Shown here in pieces: positions 4,523 through 12,089 of a stretch of 36,599 bases of DNA. The position numbers and the translations under genes are program-made. Source of the stretch: Actinomycetales bacterium (GTDB taxonomy: Bacteria > Actinomycetota > Actinomycetes > Actinomycetales > Kineosporiaceae); contig JAAYAH010000004.1 of assembly GCA_012719445.1 (NCBI GenBank), positions 1 through 36,599 of the forward strand. Reading direction: 5' to 3'. Each line of letters starts with the position of its first letter. Position 1 is the first letter of the stretch. The notes beneath the pieces are model-generated. The model was not told the origin of the DNA, searched no databases, and was given only the letters and a program-made list of their open reading frames with translations.

Positions 4523-4966
4523 TTACTGCGCGACCTGCGAGATCTGGAACGGCTGCGGCTTCTGGGCCGCGTGCGGGTGCTCGGGACCCGCGTAGACCTT
4601 GAGCTTGGTCAGCTGCTGCCGGCTGAGCGTGTTCTTGGGGAGCATGCCGCGCACGGCCTTCTCCACCGCCCGGGCCGGGTTCTTCTCCAGCAGCTCGGCG
4701 TAGGTGACGGCGCGCAGGCCGCCGGGGTACCCGGAGTGCCGGTAGGCCTTCTTCTGCTCCCGCTTGGCGCCGGTGAGCGCAACCTTGCCCGCATTGATGA
4801 TGATCACGAAGTCGCCCGTGTCCACGTGCGGTGCGAAGGTGGGCTTGTGCTTCCCGCGGAGCAGGACGGCGGCCTGGCTCGCCAGTCGGCCGAGCACCAC
4901 GTCTGTCGCGTCGATGACGTGCCAGCGGCGCTCGATCTCGCCGGGCTTTGGGGTGTACGTGCGCAC
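4523..4966 (-). CDS. rplM: 50S ribosomal protein L13
   Basis: A 147-residue L13 when started at the GTG at 4966, which matches the usual family length and N-terminus ([20 protein letters not shown]). GAAGG lies about 8 bases upstream. An in-frame ATG at 4987 lacks a ribosome binding site, and the frame running up to 5092 is not conserved. Conserved blocks are [41 protein letters not shown] and [12 protein letters not shown]13 is an early assembly protein of the 50S subunit. It is transcribed from a strong candidate promoter at 5104-5132, with a leader of about 130 bases. Confidence 0.97.
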
Positions 4967-5103
4967 GGTCGTAGCCTTCGTCCTCATCCGGAGTGTGTCC
5001 GCGGTGCGGGTCACGTCGTGTTCGAGACCCGCATGGCCCTGACGGCGCCGGTCCAACCCTGCGAGGGCTGCACCGGACGCAGCACGGGGCACAACGTCTG
5101 GCC

Positions 5104-5216: not shown

Positions 5217-6800
5217 TCAACCGGCCCCGAGAGCCGACATCGCCGGCAACGGCCGGTTGGAGTAGTCGAACAGCGCCTGGTTCTCCCAGGCGTTCCCGGA
5301 GTTCGGATCGGTGGGGTCCCAGCCGCCGCCTGCGACCGCGGTCCACGCAGGCTCCCAGTAGAAGACGCCCAGTCCCCTGCCGCCCGGCACCCGGGCCATC
5401 ACGGCGAGGACGTCCCGCACGAGCTGCGCCTGCCCCTCGGGGCTCGCGGAGTAGCCGCCGGCCTGGGCGAGGGAGGAGTCGAAGATGTTACCGAGGGAGT
5501 CCTTGCCCGAGAGCGTGAACCCGTACGCGGTCTCGACCACGACGACGGGCTTGCCGTACCGGGATGCGAGGTCGTTCGCCTCGGACTGGAGCGACGACAG
5601 CGAGCCGTGCCAGTACACGTAGTGCGAGAGCCCGATGACGTCGAAGGGCACCCCGTGGGACACCGCGGAGTCGTACCACCAGCGCAGGCCGGCGGTGTCG
5701 GTGATGTTGGCGAGGTGCAGCACGACCCTGGTCGAGGAGTCGACCTCCTTCGCCGCCCGGGAGCCCGCGGTGAGGAGCTGGGCGAGGTTGGACCAGTTGT
5801 CGCTGCTCCCGTCCGGCAGCAGCATCCCGGGGTTGATCTCGTTCCCGATCTGCACCATGTCCGCCGTGGTGCCCTGGCTCCTCAGCGCGCCGAGAACGTC
5901 GCGGGTGTGCGTGTAGACGGCGTCCCGGAGCTGGGCGAAGGTGTAGCCGCGCCAGGCGGCCGGCTTCTCCTGCCTGCCGGGGTCGGCCCAGTAGTCGGAG
6001 TAGTGGAAGTCGACGAGCAGCCCCATGCCCTGACCCTTGATCCGCTTGGCCATCTCGAGCACCCGGGTCTTGTTGTTGTACCCGTCCGCCGGGTTGACCC
6101 ACACCTTGAGCCGCGCCCAGTTCACGCCGTGCGCGCGGAGGATGGCCAGGGCGTCACCCCGGTTGCCCTGCGCGTCGTAGTACACGGCCCCCCGGTCCTC
6201 GTTCTTCTTCAGACTGGACACGTCGCCGCCGCGGATCTGGACCCCGGACCCGCCCGACGTCGTCGTGGTCGGCCGCGTCGTCGTGGTCACGGTGGTCGTG
6301 GGCACGGTGGTCGTCGTGGTCGGCCGCGTCGTGGTGGTCGTGGGCACGGTGGTCGTGGTCCGTCCCGAGGTGGTGGTGACGGACCCGGTGCAGGACACGC
6401 CGTTCAGGGTGAACGCTGCCGGCACCGGGTTGGCCGACCCCCAGCTGCCCTGGAAGCCGATGGACGTGCCCGCTCCGGTCCCCAGCCCGCCGTTCCAACT
6501 CGCGTTGGTCGCGGTCACCTGGTTCCCGTTCTGGGTGAAGGTGGCGTTCCAGCCGGAGAGGACCCGCTGGTCACCGGCGAAGGACCAGGTCAGCACCCAG
6601 CCGGAGAGGGGGTCGCCGAGATTCGTGAGCTGGAGGCCCGCGACGAAGCCGCCCGACCACTGCGCGGTCACGGTGTAGCCGACGGAACAGCCGGCCGCTG
6701 CGACGGCCGGTCCGGTCGTGGCGATCCCCCCGGTCAGGAGTGCGCTCGCGGCTCCGACGGTGAGCGCGACGAGACGGCGACGTCCCGATGTAGCGAACAT
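5217..6800 (-). CDS. Secreted arabinogalactan endo-beta-1,4-galactanase (CBM2 + GH53)
   Basis: A 527-residue secreted enzyme. Residues 1-35 are a signal peptide. Residues 36-139 are a family 2 carbohydrate-binding module (WSGGFVAGLQLTNLG, GWVLTWSF, GWNATFTQNGNQVTATNASWN, and Cys at both ends). A Thr/Pro linker spans 140-185. The remainder is a GH53 catalytic domain (RGGDVSSLKKNED, then WARLKVWVNP, then DFHYSDYWADPGRQEKPAAW). Glu321 in QIGNEINPG is the expected acid/base and Glu423 in VVVETAYGF the expected nucleophile. Family GH53 cleaves beta-1,4-galactan in pectin side chains (EC 3.2.1.89). GGAAGG lies 6 bases before the ATG. Two LacI-type palindromes upstream point to repression until galactan-derived sugars appear. 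No transporter or regulator gene for the pathway is in the window. Confidence 0.93.
   Translation of the reverse strand: MFATSGRRRLVALTVGAASALLTGGIATTGPAVAAAGCSVGYTVTAQWSGGFVAGLQLTNLGDPLSGWVLTWSFAGDQRVLSGWNATFTQNGNQVTATNASWNGGLGTGAGTSIGFQGSWGSANPVPAAFTLNGVSCTGSVTTTSGRTTTTVPTTTTTRPTTTTTVPTTTVTTTTRPTTTTSGGSGVQIRGGDVSSLKKNEDRGAVYYDAQGNRGDALAILRAHGVNWARLKVWVNPADGYNNKTRVLEMAKRIKGQGMGLLVDFHYSDYWADPGRQEKPAAWRGYTFAQLRDAVYTHTRDVLGALRSQGTTADMVQIGNEINPGMLLPDGSSDNWSNLAQLLTAGSRAAKEVDSSTRVVLHLANITDTAGLRWWYDSAVSHGVPFDVIGLSHYVYWHGSLSSLQSEANDLASRYGKPVVVVETAYGFTLSGKDSLGNIFDSSLAQAGGYSASPEGQAQLVRDVLAVMARVPGGRGLGVFYWEPAWTAVAGGGWDPTDPNSGNAWENQALFDYSNRPLPAMSALGAG
6256..6362 (-). repeat. Low-complexity repeats encoding the Thr/Pro linker
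   Basis: Short imperfect repeats rich in GGTCGT and GGTGGTCGTGG encode the TTTTRPTTTT and TVPTTT linker units. Two copies each of the units GTGGTCGGCCGCGTCGT and GTGGGCACGGTGGTCGT (plus strand) can be seen. Such tracts commonly change length by slippage. Confidence 0.7.
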
Positions 6801-7065: not shown

Positions 7066-8757
7066 TCAGCCGGCCGTCCGCGTCGCCGCCCTCCCCGCCT
7101 CACCCCAGACCGGCTCCGCGGACTCGCGGACCTCCCCACCCGCGGTGAAGGCGAGGAACCGGTCGAACGACCGCGCGAACCACCGGTCGTGGGTCACCGC
7201 GACCACCGTTCCCTCGAACGTCGACAACGCGACCTCCAGGGCCTCGGCGGAGTGCAGGTCGAGGTTGTCGGTCGGCTCGTCGAGCAGCAGCAGGGTGGCA
7301 CCGGACAGCTCCAGCAGCAGGATCTGGAACCGGGCCTGCTGGCCTCCGGACAACGAGTCGAAGGTCTGCTCCGCCGCCCGCGCCAGCCCGTACCGGTCGA
7401 GCACCCGGCTGGCCTGCTCCCTGGGCAGCCCGTCGCGGTGTCCGGTCCCACGGTGCAGGACGTCGAGCAGCGTCCGGCCGGTCAGCTCCGGGTGCTCGTG
7501 GGTCTGCGCGAACCAGCCCGGCCGGACCCGGGCACCGAGCCGCGCCGTCCCCGTGTGGACGACCGGAGCCACCTCGATCCCCTCCACCGGCCGGTGCTCG
7601 ACGTCCGGATCGCTGCCACCGGCCGCGAGCAGCCGGAGGAAGTGCGACTTCCCGGAGCCGTTGGCCCCCAGCACCGCGACCCGGTCCCCGAACCACACCT
7701 CGAGGTCGAACGGGGCGGTGAGACCGGTCAGGGCCAGCCGCTCGACGACGACGGCCCGCTTGCCGGTGCGTCCGCCGCGCAGACGCATGGTCACCCGCTG
7801 GCTCGACGGGACCGCCTCCGGCGGCCCGGCGTCCTCGAACCGCCGCAGCCGACTCAGCGCCGACTGGTACCGGGACGCCATCTCCGCGTTGTAGGCGGAC
7901 TTCGTCCGGTACAGCTGCACGAGGGCCCTGAGCTTGGCATGGTCCTCGTCCCAGCGGCGGCGCAGCTCCTCCAGCCGCGAGTTCCGCTCCTCCCGCGCCT
8001 GCTGGTAGGTGGCGAACGAGCCCCCGTGCACCCAGGCGGAGGCCCCGCCGGCCCGCGGCTCCAGGGTCACGATCCGCTCGGCCGCCCGCGCCAGCAACTC
8101 CCGGTCGTGCGAGACGAGCAGGACCGTCTTCGGGGTCTGGCCGAGTTGCTCCTCCAGCCAGAGTTTCGCGGGCACGTCGAGGTAGTTGTCCGGCTCGTCG
8201 AGCAGCAGGACGTCGTCCGGCCCCCTGAGCAGCGCCTCCAGCACCAGGCGCTTCTGCTCGCCGCCGGAGAGGGTGCGCACCTGGCGCCACTGGGCCGAGG
8301 CGAAGGGCAGGCCCGTCGCCGCCGTCGTGCACGCGTCCCACAGCGGCTCCACCTCGTAGCCACCCGCATCGCCCCAGTCGGCGAGGGCCTGGGCGTAGCG
8401 CAGCTGCGTCGGCTCGTCGTCGGTGTCCATCATGGCCAGCTCTGCGGCGTCGAGGGCCTCTGCCGCGGCCCGGAGCCGTGGCGGGGCGACCGACACCAGG
8501 AGGTCCCGGACGGTGGAGTCGTCGTGCACCGTCCCGACGAACTGGCGCATGACGCCGAGGCCGCCGCTGCGGGTGACCGCGCCGACGTACGGGTCGAGGT
8601 CCCCCGCGATGATCCGCAGCAGGGTGGTCTTTCCCGACCCGTTGGGACCGATCAGGGCGGTGGTGGTGCCGTCGCCGACCCGGAAGTGCACCTCGTCGAG
8701 CAGCGGCCGCCCGTCCGGGAGGGTGTAGCCGACGCCGTTGACCTCCACATGGCCCAT
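7066..8757 (-). CDS. ABC-F family ATP-binding protein
   Basis: A 563-residue soluble protein with two ABC ATPase domains and no membrane segments. Domain 1 has Walker A GPNGSGKTT (37-45), signature LSGGEQ (163-168) and Walker B VLLLDEPDNYLD (183-194). Domain 2 has GANGSGKS (364-371), LSGGQQ (469-474) and LLLLDEPTDNLD (489-500). An Arg/Glu-rich linker lies between them (EERNSRLEELRRRWDEDH). This duplicated layout defines ABC-F proteins, which act on the ribosome, either as translation factors or as antibiotic-resistance proteins. Which of these applies cannot be told here. I chose the ATG at 8757 (MGHVEVNGVGYTL); the frame extends to 8838 without a conserved sequence. It follows the VOC gene on the same strand. 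Confidence 0.9.
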   Translation of the reverse strand: MGHVEVNGVGYTLPDGRPLLDEVHFRVGDGTTTALIGPNGSGKTTLLRIIAGDLDPYVGAVTRSGGLGVMRQFVGTVHDDSTVRDLLVSVAPPRLRAAAEALDAAELAMMDTDDEPTQLRYAQALADWGDAGGYEVEPLWDACTTAATGLPFASAQWRQVRTLSGGEQKRLVLEALLRGPDDVLLLDEPDNYLDVPAKLWLEEQLGQTPKTVLLVSHDRELLARAAERIVTLEPRAGGASAWVHGGSFATYQQAREERNSRLEELRRRWDEDHAKLRALVQLYRTKSAYNAEMASRYQSALSRLRRFEDAGPPEAVPSSQRVTMRLRGGRTGKRAVVVERLALTGLTAPFDLEVWFGDRVAVLGANGSGKSHFLRLLAAGGSDPDVEHRPVEGIEVAPVVHTGTARLGARVRPGWFAQTHEHPELTGRTLLDVLHRGTGHRDGLPREQASRVLDRYGLARAAEQTFDSLSGGQQARFQILLLELSGATLLLLDEPTDNLDLHSAEALEVALSTFEGTVVAVTHDRWFARSFDRFLAFTAGGEVRESAEPVWGEAGRAATRTAG

Positions 8758-8823
8758 GAGGCACCAGTGTGCCGCCGGTACTGCCGCGGCTCTCCTCCTT
8801 TTCCGCCGGCCTGTCGCCTCACC

Positions 8824-8897
8824 CCGGCCGGTCCGCACCGCTCCCGGTCCGGCGCCGTCCGCTGCCCGGCGAGGACCGGGAGGAGGGGACCGGCCGG
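8824..8897 (-). terminator. Nested hairpin after the VOC gene
   Basis: An outer stem of 11 bp (CCGGCCGGTCC at 8824-8834 with GGACCGGCCGG at 8887-8897) encloses an inner stem of 10 bp (CTCCCGGTCC at 8841-8850 with GGACCGGGAG at 8873-8882). It begins 5 bases past the VOC stop, upstream of the ABC-F gene. There is no T run. Confidence 0.55.
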
Positions 8898-9393: not shown

Positions 9394-9672
9394 TCAGCTG
9401 CCCCTTCGCTCCGCCGCGTCCCGCGCCAACGCGCGGTCCGCCTCGCTCTCGTCGATGACGTGCATCGCGGCCTCCTCGGCGCTGGCCGCACCGTGGTCCA
9501 CGCCGACGTCCCGGGCGACGAGGTCGACCGTCAGCGCCGGATCCGGTTCCTCCTGGACCAGCCGCTGGTCGATGGTCTCCCCCGCCCGATGCTCGGCCGG
9601 CGTCGTCCCGTACCGGGTGCCGAGGTGTGCCCCATGCCCCACCCCCACCCAGGTATGTGCCCCATGCCCCAC
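9394..9672 (-). CDS. DUF5709-like protein, N-terminally truncated (possible pseudogene)
   Basis: 92 residues. The part from residue 25 on (TPAEHRAGETIDQRLVQEEPDP, then DLVARDVGVDHGAASAEEAAMHV) resembles the C-terminal half of DUF5709 proteins, acidic actinobacterial proteins of unknown function. The usual N-terminal half is missing, and the segment that often links the two conserved blocks is shortened. The first 16 residues come from a duplicated 18-bp sequence (VGHGAH twice). None of the GTG starts there has a ribosome binding site. It is divergent from the gene at 9741. It may be a remnant or a shortened gene. Confidence 0.45.
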   Translation of the reverse strand: MGHGAHTWVGVGHGAHLGTRYGTTPAEHRAGETIDQRLVQEEPDPALTVDLVARDVGVDHGAASAEEAAMHVIDESEADRALARDAAERRGS

Positions 9673-9674
9673 CC
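9627..9674. repeat. Pair of 18-bp direct repeats
   Basis: GTGCCCCATGCCCCACCC occurs at 9627-9644 and again at 9657-9674, 30 bp apart. It lies at the broken 5' end of the DUF5709-like frame and upstream of the divergent gene. Confidence 0.85.
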
Positions 9675-9740
9675 AGGAACGCCCCGTCCCGCGAGCACGA
9701 CCGGCGGGCGGAGGGCGGGGAGATCCGGGAGGATGGCCGG

Positions 9741-10403
9741 GTGACCGAGCCGTCCCTCCGCAGGCTCTACCTGGACACCGCCGAGGCGACCCTCGGCCTG
9801 GTCGGCGACCCGAGGGTCGCCCACGGCTGGGCCGACGCGAGCGTCCTCGCCGGGCTCACCGTCGGCGCTCTCGCCTCCCACACCGCACGGTCGGTGCTCC
9901 AGGTGGAGAACTTCCTGGACGCCGGGGAGCCCCAGGCCGCGGGGGACGACGGCACGCAGGACCCGGTGGACGCCGGCGGGTACTTCGCGGGCGTGGCGGG
10001 ACTCGACGACCCCGGGTCGGCGGTGAACACCGGCGTCCGGGACCGGGCCGCGCTCATGGCAGCCGATGGACCGCAGTCCCTCGTCGCCGACATGGCCGGA
10101 TGCCTCCGCCGGCTCACGGCCCGATTGCCCGATGAGCCCGCGGGACGCCGGGTGACGGCGTTCGGCGGGCAGCCGATGGCCCTCGACGAGTACCTGCGGA
10201 CCCGGCTGGTCGAGTTCTGCGTCCACGCCGACGACCTCGCCCTCTCGATCGGCGCCGGACCATCCGCGCTGCCGGAGGTCGCCCTGCGGGTGGCCGTCGA
10301 CGTCCTCGTCGGCACGGCCGTGACCCGCCACGGTGCCCCGGCGGTGCTGCGCGCCCTCGCGCGGCGGGAGCGGGACGCGGTCGCCGCTCTGCGGGTGCTC
10401 TGA
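9741..10403 (+). CDS. Maleylpyruvate isomerase family (mycothiol-dependent, DinB-like) protein
   Basis: The only convincing plus-strand gene: 220 residues from GTG at 9741, with GGGAGGA 6 bases upstream. It has the four-helix MDMPI/DinB-like metal-binding fold. His in VGALASHTARSV and the Glu/His pair in LVEFCVHADDLALS fit the expected metal triad. Family members use mycothiol as cofactor for isomerase or transferase reactions, or are detoxification enzymes of unknown substrate. It converges with truA, 40 bases away. Its exact reaction cannot be assigned. Confidence 0.8.
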   Translation: MTEPSLRRLYLDTAEATLGLVGDPRVAHGWADASVLAGLTVGALASHTARSVLQVENFLDAGEPQAAGDDGTQDPVDAGGYFAGVAGLDDPGSAVNTGVRDRAALMAADGPQSLVADMAGCLRRLTARLPDEPAGRRVTAFGGQPMALDEYLRTRLVEFCVHADDLALSIGAGPSALPEVALRVAVDVLVGTAVTRHGAPAVLRALARRERDAVAALRVL

Positions 10404-10423: not shown

Positions 10424-10444
10424 GCCGTCCTGCGTCGGGACGGT
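10424..10444. terminator. Small hairpin between convergent genes
   Basis: CCGTCC (10425-10430) and GGACGG (10438-10443) form a 6-bp stem with a 7-base loop between the stops of the plus-strand MDMPI gene and truA. It could end transcription from both sides. It is short and lacks T runs, so the call is weak. Confidence 0.35.
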
Positions 10445-11466
10445 CAGCACCCGCAGCCGGGGTCCGCCACCGGGTCACGGCGTGCCCTGGCCACGGCCAC
10501 CCGGGCGGCGAGCTCGGCGTCCGGCGGGTACGCCACCTCCTCCAGGGTCAACCCGTGCGCCGGGACGACGGTGACCCCCGGGTCCCGCTCCCGCGCCGCG
10601 AGCACCAGCTCCGGCCAGGCGACGTCCCGCCGTCCCTCGCCGACGGCCAGCAGGGCACCGACGAGAGCCCGGACCATGGAGTGGCAGAAGGCGTCGGCGC
10701 GGACCCGGGCGACGGCCAGGCCCGCGTCGTCCCGGGCCCACCGGTACTCCAGCAGGGTGCGCACGGTCGTTGCGCCCTCACGGCGGCGGCAGTAGGCGGC
10801 GAAGTCGCGCAGGCCGAGCAGGAGTTGCGCGGCCAGGTTCATCCGCTCCAGGTCCAGCGGCCGCCGGTTGCCCAGCACGTCGTGCCTGCGCAGCGGCGGC
10901 ACCCCGGCGGGATCGTCGCAGACCCGGTAGGCGTACCGCCGGTGCACGGCGCCGAAGCGGGCGTCGAAGCCCTCCGGTGCCGGGCCGGCAGCGTGCACCC
11001 GGACGTCCGGCGGCAGGACGCCGCGCAACCGGCGGAGCAGGGACGCCGCGGGGGGCAGCGAGGACCGCCCCGGCAGGCCCGCCCAGGCGGCCAGGGGCAG
11101 GTCCACGTGGCACACCTGGCCGGTGGCGTGCACCCCGGCGTCGGTGCGCCCGGCCACCACGAGCCGGACGTCCTCGCCCGGGACCCGGGTGACCCTGGCC
11201 AGCGCCCCGGCCAGCGTGCTCTCGACGGTGCGCAGGCCGGGCTGCGCGGCCCAGCCGGAGAATCCGGTGCCGTCGTAGCCGAGGTCGAGCCGGACCCGGA
11301 CCCACCCGGACCGGACCGCACCGGCGGCGGTGGCACCGGCAGTGACCGGTCCGGCGGGGGCGGCGGCGGAGCCGGAACGGGCGAGCCCGCCGGCCCGGAC
11401 CTCCGTGTCGGGAGGACCGGGCGCGACGGGCTCGTCCGGCTGCTGGTGCCTGCCGGTGCTGCTCAG
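10444..11466 (-). CDS. truA: tRNA pseudouridine(38-40) synthase TruA, probable CTG start
   Basis: TruA converts uridines 38-40 of the tRNA anticodon arm to pseudouridine. The catalytic motif [10 protein letters not shown] (Asp109 in my numbering) is clear, as are [14 protein letters not shown] and [17 protein letters not shown]. The first GTG is at 11160, but the frame upstream encodes the essential N-terminal block [20 protein letters not shown], so that start is wrong. Between that block and rplQ the frame contains no ATG, GTG or TTG. The best candidate is a CTG at 11464-11466 that overlaps the rplQ TGA (CTGA), with AAGGA 6-7 bases upstream. This gives 340 residues, the first 55 or so being a low-complexity leader. 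A sequencing error or a start inside rplQ are the alternatives. It is probably co-transcribed with rpoA-rplQ. Confidence 0.85.
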
Positions 11467-12089
11467 GCCTCGTCCTTCGCGGGCTTGGCCTTCGTGGACC
11501 GGGACCTCGGCTTGGCGGCGGGCTTGGTGCTCTCCTTCGCCTCCTCCGCCGGGGCCTCGGCCGCGGCGTCCGTCGGCTCGGCGGGGGCGCTGTCGGCCGG
11601 TTCCTCGGCCGCGGGGGCGTCCTCCGCCGGCTTCTTCGACGGCAGGGTGGTCCGGACCGGCTGGGACCGGTTCTTGGCTGCCCGCTTCGTGGCCGCCTCG
11701 GCCTCGCGCACCGTCGCCTGCTTGGCGGTCAGCGGCTCGAGCACCAGCTCGATCACGGCCATCGGGGCGTTGTCACCCTTCCGGTTACCGATCTTGACGA
11801 TCCGGGTGTAGCCACCCTGACGCTCGGCCATCGCGGGAGCGATCTCGGTGAACAGCTCGTGCACGACGGACTTGTCCCGCACGACCGTGAGCACCCGCCG
11901 CCGGGAGGCGAGGTCGCCGCGCTTGGCGAAGGTGACCAGACGCTCAGCGAGAGGGCGCACCCGCTTCGCCTTCGCCTCGGTGGTGGTGATGCGGCGGTGT
12001 TCGAACAGCTGACTCGCCAGGTTCCCCAGCAGCAGCCGCTCATGCGCCGGGCCTCCGCCGAGGCGCGGGCCCTTGGTGGGCGATGGCAT
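11463..12089 (-). CDS. rplQ: 50S ribosomal protein L17
   Basis: A 208-residue L17. The conserved core is residues 1-120 ([31 protein letters not shown], then [31 protein letters not shown]). About 85 extra residues at the C-terminus are rich in Ala, Glu, Pro and Lys and are predicted disordered. Such tails are common in actinobacterial L17 and vary in sequence. L17 binds 23S rRNA near the exit tunnel. It lies 58 bases downstream of rpoA, and its stop overlaps the proposed truA start. Confidence 0.97.

Follow-up and report, generated by a model that had tools for sequence, protein, structure and literature searches.

In the actinobacterial DNA described here, the gene for tRNA pseudouridine synthase (truA) is very probably translated from a CTG codon at 11466-11464 that overlaps the stop codon of the preceding gene, rplQ. 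In several relatives, truA likewise appears to start at such a CTG. This is the best reading of the sequence, because ordinary start codons (ATG, GTG or TTG) are absent, because an in-frame CTG is found wherever the ordinary start is missing in the sample of relatives, and because the reading frame is kept all the way from the rplQ stop to the TruA core. The analysed stretch, in the following called the window, comprises 36,599 bases from an Actinomycetales bacterium of the Kineosporiaceae (GCA_012719445.1, JAAYAH010000004.1:1-36,599), taken from a draft assembly of 283 contigs. The locus has the following features:

11463-12089, minus strand: rplQ, ribosomal protein L17; open reading frame from ATG at 12089 to TGA at 11465-11463
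11473-11477, minus strand: AAGGA, a Shine-Dalgarno-like motif in the 3' end of rplQ, 6 bases before the CTG
11464-11466, minus strand: CTG, proposed truA start codon, overlapping the rplQ TGA as CTGA (11466-11463)
10444-11466, minus strand: truA, tRNA pseudouridine(38-40) synthase, read from the CTG to the stop, 340 residues
11290-11466, minus strand: leader from the CTG to the TruA core, 59 codons with poorly conserved amino acids
11382-11434, minus strand: strong hairpin within the leader, found by folding of 11271-11500, with arms that include GAGCCCG and CGGGCTC
11158-11160, minus strand: GTG, first in-frame ordinary start and likely annotation start, from which TruA would be shortened and lack the N-terminal YDGTGFSGW block

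The rplQ product scores 127 bits against the NCBIfam model TIGR00059 for L17, over the cut-off of 70, and 263 bits against NF051448, under the cut-off of 280. Sequence matches place the product of the downstream gene in the TruA family. When it is read from the CTG, this protein matches TIGR00071 with E = 6e-41 and 140.6 bits, just below the curated cut-off of 142.85, and NF000622 with 102 bits, far below the cut-off of 308, while its score against Pfam PF01416, 104 bits, lies above the cut-off. Residues 57-318 align to the solved TruA structure 2nqp_A (E = 8.9e-34), and by this alignment the TruA core is complete: the N-terminal YDG block and the GRTDAGVH block, whose Asp we take to be catalytic, are both contained in the CTG-started protein and both aligned. 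When the whole genome was searched, PF01416 matched a single TruA locus, in two pieces of the same gene, so that no second copy accounts for the missing ordinary start.

The surroundings of the locus include a plus-strand gene at 9627-10403 for a protein with a mycothiol maleylpyruvate isomerase N-terminal domain, which is convergent with truA and ends 40 bases from the truA stop. Further away, at 5217-6800, domain matches indicate a protein combining a family 53 glycosyl hydrolase with a CBM2 cellulose-binding domain, flanked by a ribosomal-protein gene (4523-5092) and a gene for an ABC protein (7066-8838).

A preliminary description of the window had claimed that no ATG, GTG or TTG occurs in frame between rplQ and the N-terminal block of TruA, and that a CTG overlaps the rplQ TGA as CTGA with AAGGA upstream of it. 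Both observations are confirmed. The overlap is real: the end of rplQ reads GAG GCC TGA, the CTG is made up of the final C of GCC and the TG of TGA, and AAGGA stands six bases before it. The TruA core starts at the codon 11289-11287, in frame with the CTG, and the first in-frame ordinary start is the GTG at 11160, 102 codons after the CTG, in agreement with the loss of about 100 residues that the same description had predicted for automatic annotation. A protein started at this GTG begins MVAGRTDAG and lacks 43 residues at the N-terminal end of the core, a stretch that belongs to the region aligning with 2nqp_A. Routine annotation therefore probably cuts off the front end of TruA here. Upstream of the CTG, the truA frame is open for 309 bases up to an in-frame stop with no ATG, GTG or TTG inside, which excludes an ordinary start within rplQ. 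Altogether, about 615 bases around the junction are without an in-frame ATG, GTG or TTG.

The junction was compared with those of relatives and named genomes, in which the L17 stop and the TruA core were placed by tblastn. The loci were the best TruA matches of each search together with 40 chosen stretches; 390 of 396 genomes gave matches, and part of them were sampled. From 165 truA loci, 93 had rplQ adjacent within the stretch, and 81 junctions, the window included, were left when duplicates and gaps longer than 350 bases had been dropped (82 once further loci were added). The sample is skewed to near relatives, and the genomes named are among the matches listed; it holds junctions identical to those of Kineococcus vitellinus, Kineococcus rubinsiae, Quadrisphaera sp., Demequina subtropica and one actinobacterial metagenome-assembled genome of the window's family.

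Among the 81 distinct junctions, 29 have a CTGA whose CTG is in frame with the core and open up to it. Of these, 16 lack an ordinary start between positions -60 and -9 relative to the core, a lack seen in none of the other 52 (Fisher p = 2e-9; since the sampled genomes share ancestry, the counts are not independent and this p value overstates the independent evidence). When the whole interval from the rplQ stop to the core is considered, ordinary starts are absent in 10 of the 29 (five of them in the Kineococcus family) and, again, in none of the 52. The 16 junctions without a near-core start span nine genera: the window's own, three more of its family, two of the Kineococcus family (both of its genera), two of the Quadrisphaera family, and Actinopolymorpha. 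That nine genera should all be in phase by chance is unlikely. All 16 have the CTG at the rplQ stop, a count for which in-frame CTGA is part of the definition of the group.

These junctions bear on the objection that a sequencing error or a broken gene conceals an ordinary start in the window genome. The assembly is a draft in 283 contigs, the region is very GC-rich and an off-frame GTG lies at 11305, all of which would favour such an error. Against this, nine further genomes likewise show no ordinary start from rplQ up to the core, and in the window the TruA core is complete by alignment and the gene is in single copy; the probability that remains for this explanation is minimal.

The proposal of the preliminary description that truA starts at a rare CTG is thus supported by the comparison, in that every junction without a near-core ordinary start has the CTG at the rplQ stop and, as described below, the lengths of the leader segments vary in steps of three. 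Its suggestion that the CTG might be replaced by ATG or GTG in relatives did not hold in the 82 junctions, where the stop tetramers are CTGA in 54, GTAA in 13, GTAG in 13 and GTGA in 2. No ATGA is among them, and the GTGA is out of phase in one case and closed by an in-frame stop in the other. What relatives show is an in-frame CTG, a downstream ordinary start, or the two together. In CTGA junctions that have an ordinary start, the CTG is in phase in 18 of 38 (and also open in 13 of the 38), only slightly above one third (p = 0.05).

The main rival to the CTG is a GTC near the core. In this alternative, truA would start at the GTC at 11301-11299, twelve bases before the core and after the hairpin, in the manner of Streptomyces sigR, for which a GTC start has been shown (PMC5472188), and the in-frame CTGA would be incidental. 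A GTC is found at -12 in 11 of the 16 junctions without an ordinary start, and several other junctions have GTG there. The remaining five of the 16 have instead CTG (two), CTT, GTA or CGA at this position, and the GTC also merely codes for the valine of VRVRLDL. A start at the GTC would moreover leave unexplained why the ordinary start is seen to be missing only together with an in-frame CTGA, and why all three segments of the leader keep the frame. For these reasons we consider this alternative improbable.

In the Kineococcus family, four junctions (L012, L113, L116 and L122) have extra leader codons after the hairpin. The codon at -12 is GTG in L012, L116 and L122, which may have gained a second, ordinary start, and GTC in L113 and in the other eight junctions of the family.

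To see how the leader keeps its frame, consider the hairpin that many junctions carry between rplQ and truA, with arms GAGCCCG (or GAACCCG) and their complement. It divides the leader into three segments: from the CTG to the 5' arm, the hairpin itself, and from the 3' arm to the core. In the window these measure 33, 51 and 93 bases. Membership in the group of in-frame open CTGA junctions fixes only the sum of the three lengths, and the test of their phase depends little on how the group was picked. The arms could be located in 22 junctions of this group of 29, and in 21 of the 22 all three segments are divisible by three, L127 being the sole exception. When only distinct length triples are counted, 13 of 14 consist entirely of multiples of three, against a chance expectation of one in nine (binomial 5e-12, with shared ancestry disregarded). 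Outside the group, 11 of the other 53 junctions showed the arms, and none of these 11 (0 of 10 triples) has all three segments in multiples of three. The arms are absent in seven of the 29, including L007 and L020, which lack an ordinary start, and for these seven junctions the phase test is therefore silent. Insertions and deletions in the leader thus keep to the frame set at the rplQ stop, as would be expected if ribosomes translate it, and from the constancy of phase in all three segments it follows that translation of the leader most likely begins at this stop.

The same constancy of phase would result if ribosomes made a -1 shift on reaching the rplQ end, producing an L17-TruA fusion for which no start codon is needed; the relation between the two frames is indeed -1. 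The last codon before the TGA is GCC, GAC, AGC or TCC in the 16 junctions, and by-eye inspection showed that none of these re-pairs one base back and that no common slippery heptamer is present. L067 has an in-frame stop six bases upstream of the CTG, so that only the last codon would be available for a shift. A fusion by frameshifting is accordingly very unlikely.

The hairpin itself is not confined to CTGA junctions. It occurs also in relatives where rplQ ends with TAA or TAG and truA has an ordinary start after the hairpin, and a GC-rich hairpin shortly after rplQ recurs across families regardless of the phase of truA with the rplQ stop. It may be an attenuator or a terminator without a tail; a simple scan of the window found no U-tract terminator and no promoter between rplQ and truA. 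In the 22 in-frame open CTGA junctions with arms, the 5' arm begins 21-33 bases after the first base of the CTG, a spacing that would just clear a ribosome seated on this codon.

The coding signal of the leader gives a less uniform picture. In the truA frame of the window the leader scores +9.0 bits, compared with -35.3 and -33.6 for the other two sense frames; two of its antisense frames score 0.8 and -1.8. The +9.0 bits lie below the fifth percentile of coding windows (15.1), and open intergenic windows have a mean of -22 with a standard deviation of 23, 22 of 411 reaching at least 20. In the Kineococcus family, the leader differs at codon positions one, two and three by 49, 113 and 102 changes, while the first 18 codons of the core give 28, 24 and 169. 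No bias toward the third position is thus seen in the leader, so that its amino acids are under no visible selection by this codon-position test in that family. Constraint on the RNA from the hairpin may blur both the codon test and the coding score. As an example, the leader of L114, a member of the Kineococcus family without an ordinary start, reads LSASRPDDEPVLPPGEGGLVRVR.

In 15 of the 16 junctions, the distance from the end of a purine-rich motif (GAGG, AGGA or longer) to the CTG is 6-9 bases; in L020 it is three, and in some of the 16 the motif amounts to GAGG only. The Shine-Dalgarno energy of the 29 in-frame open CTGA junctions is not significantly better than that of the 25 other CTGA junctions (p = 0.08).

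The downstream start of truA overlaps the upstream stop in the form NTGA (CTGA, 11466-11463), which is the -4 overlap described as the commonest arrangement for translational coupling. In PMC10666635 this overlap is given as ATGA or GTGA, and the term CTGA is absent from its main text; in PMC12548453 it is written NTGA in general, with no CUG in the passages considered. The rplQ-truA pair is like other stop-start overlaps in that an NTG shares two bases with the upstream TGA and has a purine-rich stretch upstream, and it differs from them in that N is C. The CTGA form is new, while the -4 arrangement is already known. Streptomyces sigR (PMC5472188) resembles truA as an actinobacterial gene with a non-canonical start that is conserved over a clade and was mis-annotated; the difference is that sigR has a demonstrated GTC start with an extensive AGGAGGTG site, where truA has a proposed CTG start at a stop codon. 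The ATT and ATC starts of infC are similar as rare start codons on a translation-related gene, but infC is autoregulated via IF3, according to the same source, and TruA is no initiation factor.

Other published data speak to how well CUG can initiate. CTG was not enriched as a start in mycobacterial reporters and was a poor start there (PMC4633059), another mycobacterial paper employs CUG as a non-start (PMC11260477), and a CUG upstream of Caulobacter dnaA bound ribosomes and gave a toeprint in vitro and was unused in vivo (PMC8443254). These data count against a CTG start of truA, as do the unconserved amino acids of the leader and the non-significant Shine-Dalgarno energies. An altered anticodon stem of the initiator tRNA is one route to CUG tolerance (PMC11497404). 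All nine genomes tested have the normal GGG/CCC stem, and no CUG-permissive initiator tRNA is therefore evident in them.

Ribosomes that end the translation of rplQ at the TGA would most likely start again at the CUG that overlaps this stop, with help from the purine-rich AAGGA in the 3' end of rplQ, and would then read through the GC-rich hairpin into the TruA core. Initiation would take place at the CUG itself with fMet, and would be coupled to the termination of rplQ. Such termination-coupled re-initiation at the rplQ-truA junction is plausible, though unproven, and the role of the overlapping CTG as a working initiator is likewise inferred. Re-initiation in E. coli is sensitive to IF3 (PMC2268962), and IF3 repression has been measured for the GTC start of Streptomyces sigR (PMC5472188); by analogy, weak and IF3-sensitive initiation is predicted for the CUG. 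A weak CUG start would keep TruA well below L17. More speculatively, and rather doubtfully, CUG may have been selected throughout the clade as the sole start of a housekeeping gene, with re-initiation at a stop codon relaxing the choice of start such that CUGA works where CUG alone does not, and with the weak start and the hairpin together setting TruA at a small, IF3-sensitive fraction of L17.

How general such starts are within a genome was surveyed in two samples of DNA, one of 265,217 bases from the window genome, with the window among them, and one of 400,000 bases from a relative in the Kineococcus family (G058). Between close neighbours, the CTG is in frame and open in 15 of 39 CTGA junctions of the former and 34 of 85 of the latter, near one third and about as expected by chance. 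Late-start genes were defined by a first ordinary start lying 12 or more codons past the upstream stop and 10 or more inside the coding signal. In the -4 phase there are two such genes in each genome, all with CTGA (truA and L187 in the window genome, L203 and L208 in G058); in the other two phases the numbers are 0 and 0 for one and 3 and 1 for the other. L203 and L208 were rejected as CTGA starts, the uncovered part having no or weak coding signal (-2.0 and 5.9 bits), and so was L187 (L187:16905-17020, leading into a 758-codon frame), which has a repetitive leader and a likelier start at an ATG 32 codons on. Given the chance rate of in-frame CTGA, and given that truA is the one convincing case in the sampled DNA, the CTGA start seems to be peculiar to truA and not a genome-wide trait.

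Gene finders in standard use recognise ATG, GTG and TTG as starts, and CTG is considered an almost unused start codon in bacteria. The restriction of start prediction to the same three codons is described in PMC5472188. In the open-licence literature, no CTG start of truA was found among the matches listed, nor any joint treatment of truA, rplQ and start codon. A conserved CTG without an ordinary alternative makes it possible to test cleanly whether CUG is tolerated in termination-reinitiation, and the test of frame preservation in segments around a conserved hairpin could reveal other hidden starts. For these actinobacteria, it also means that TruA may be annotated short, missing the N-terminal block of its fold.
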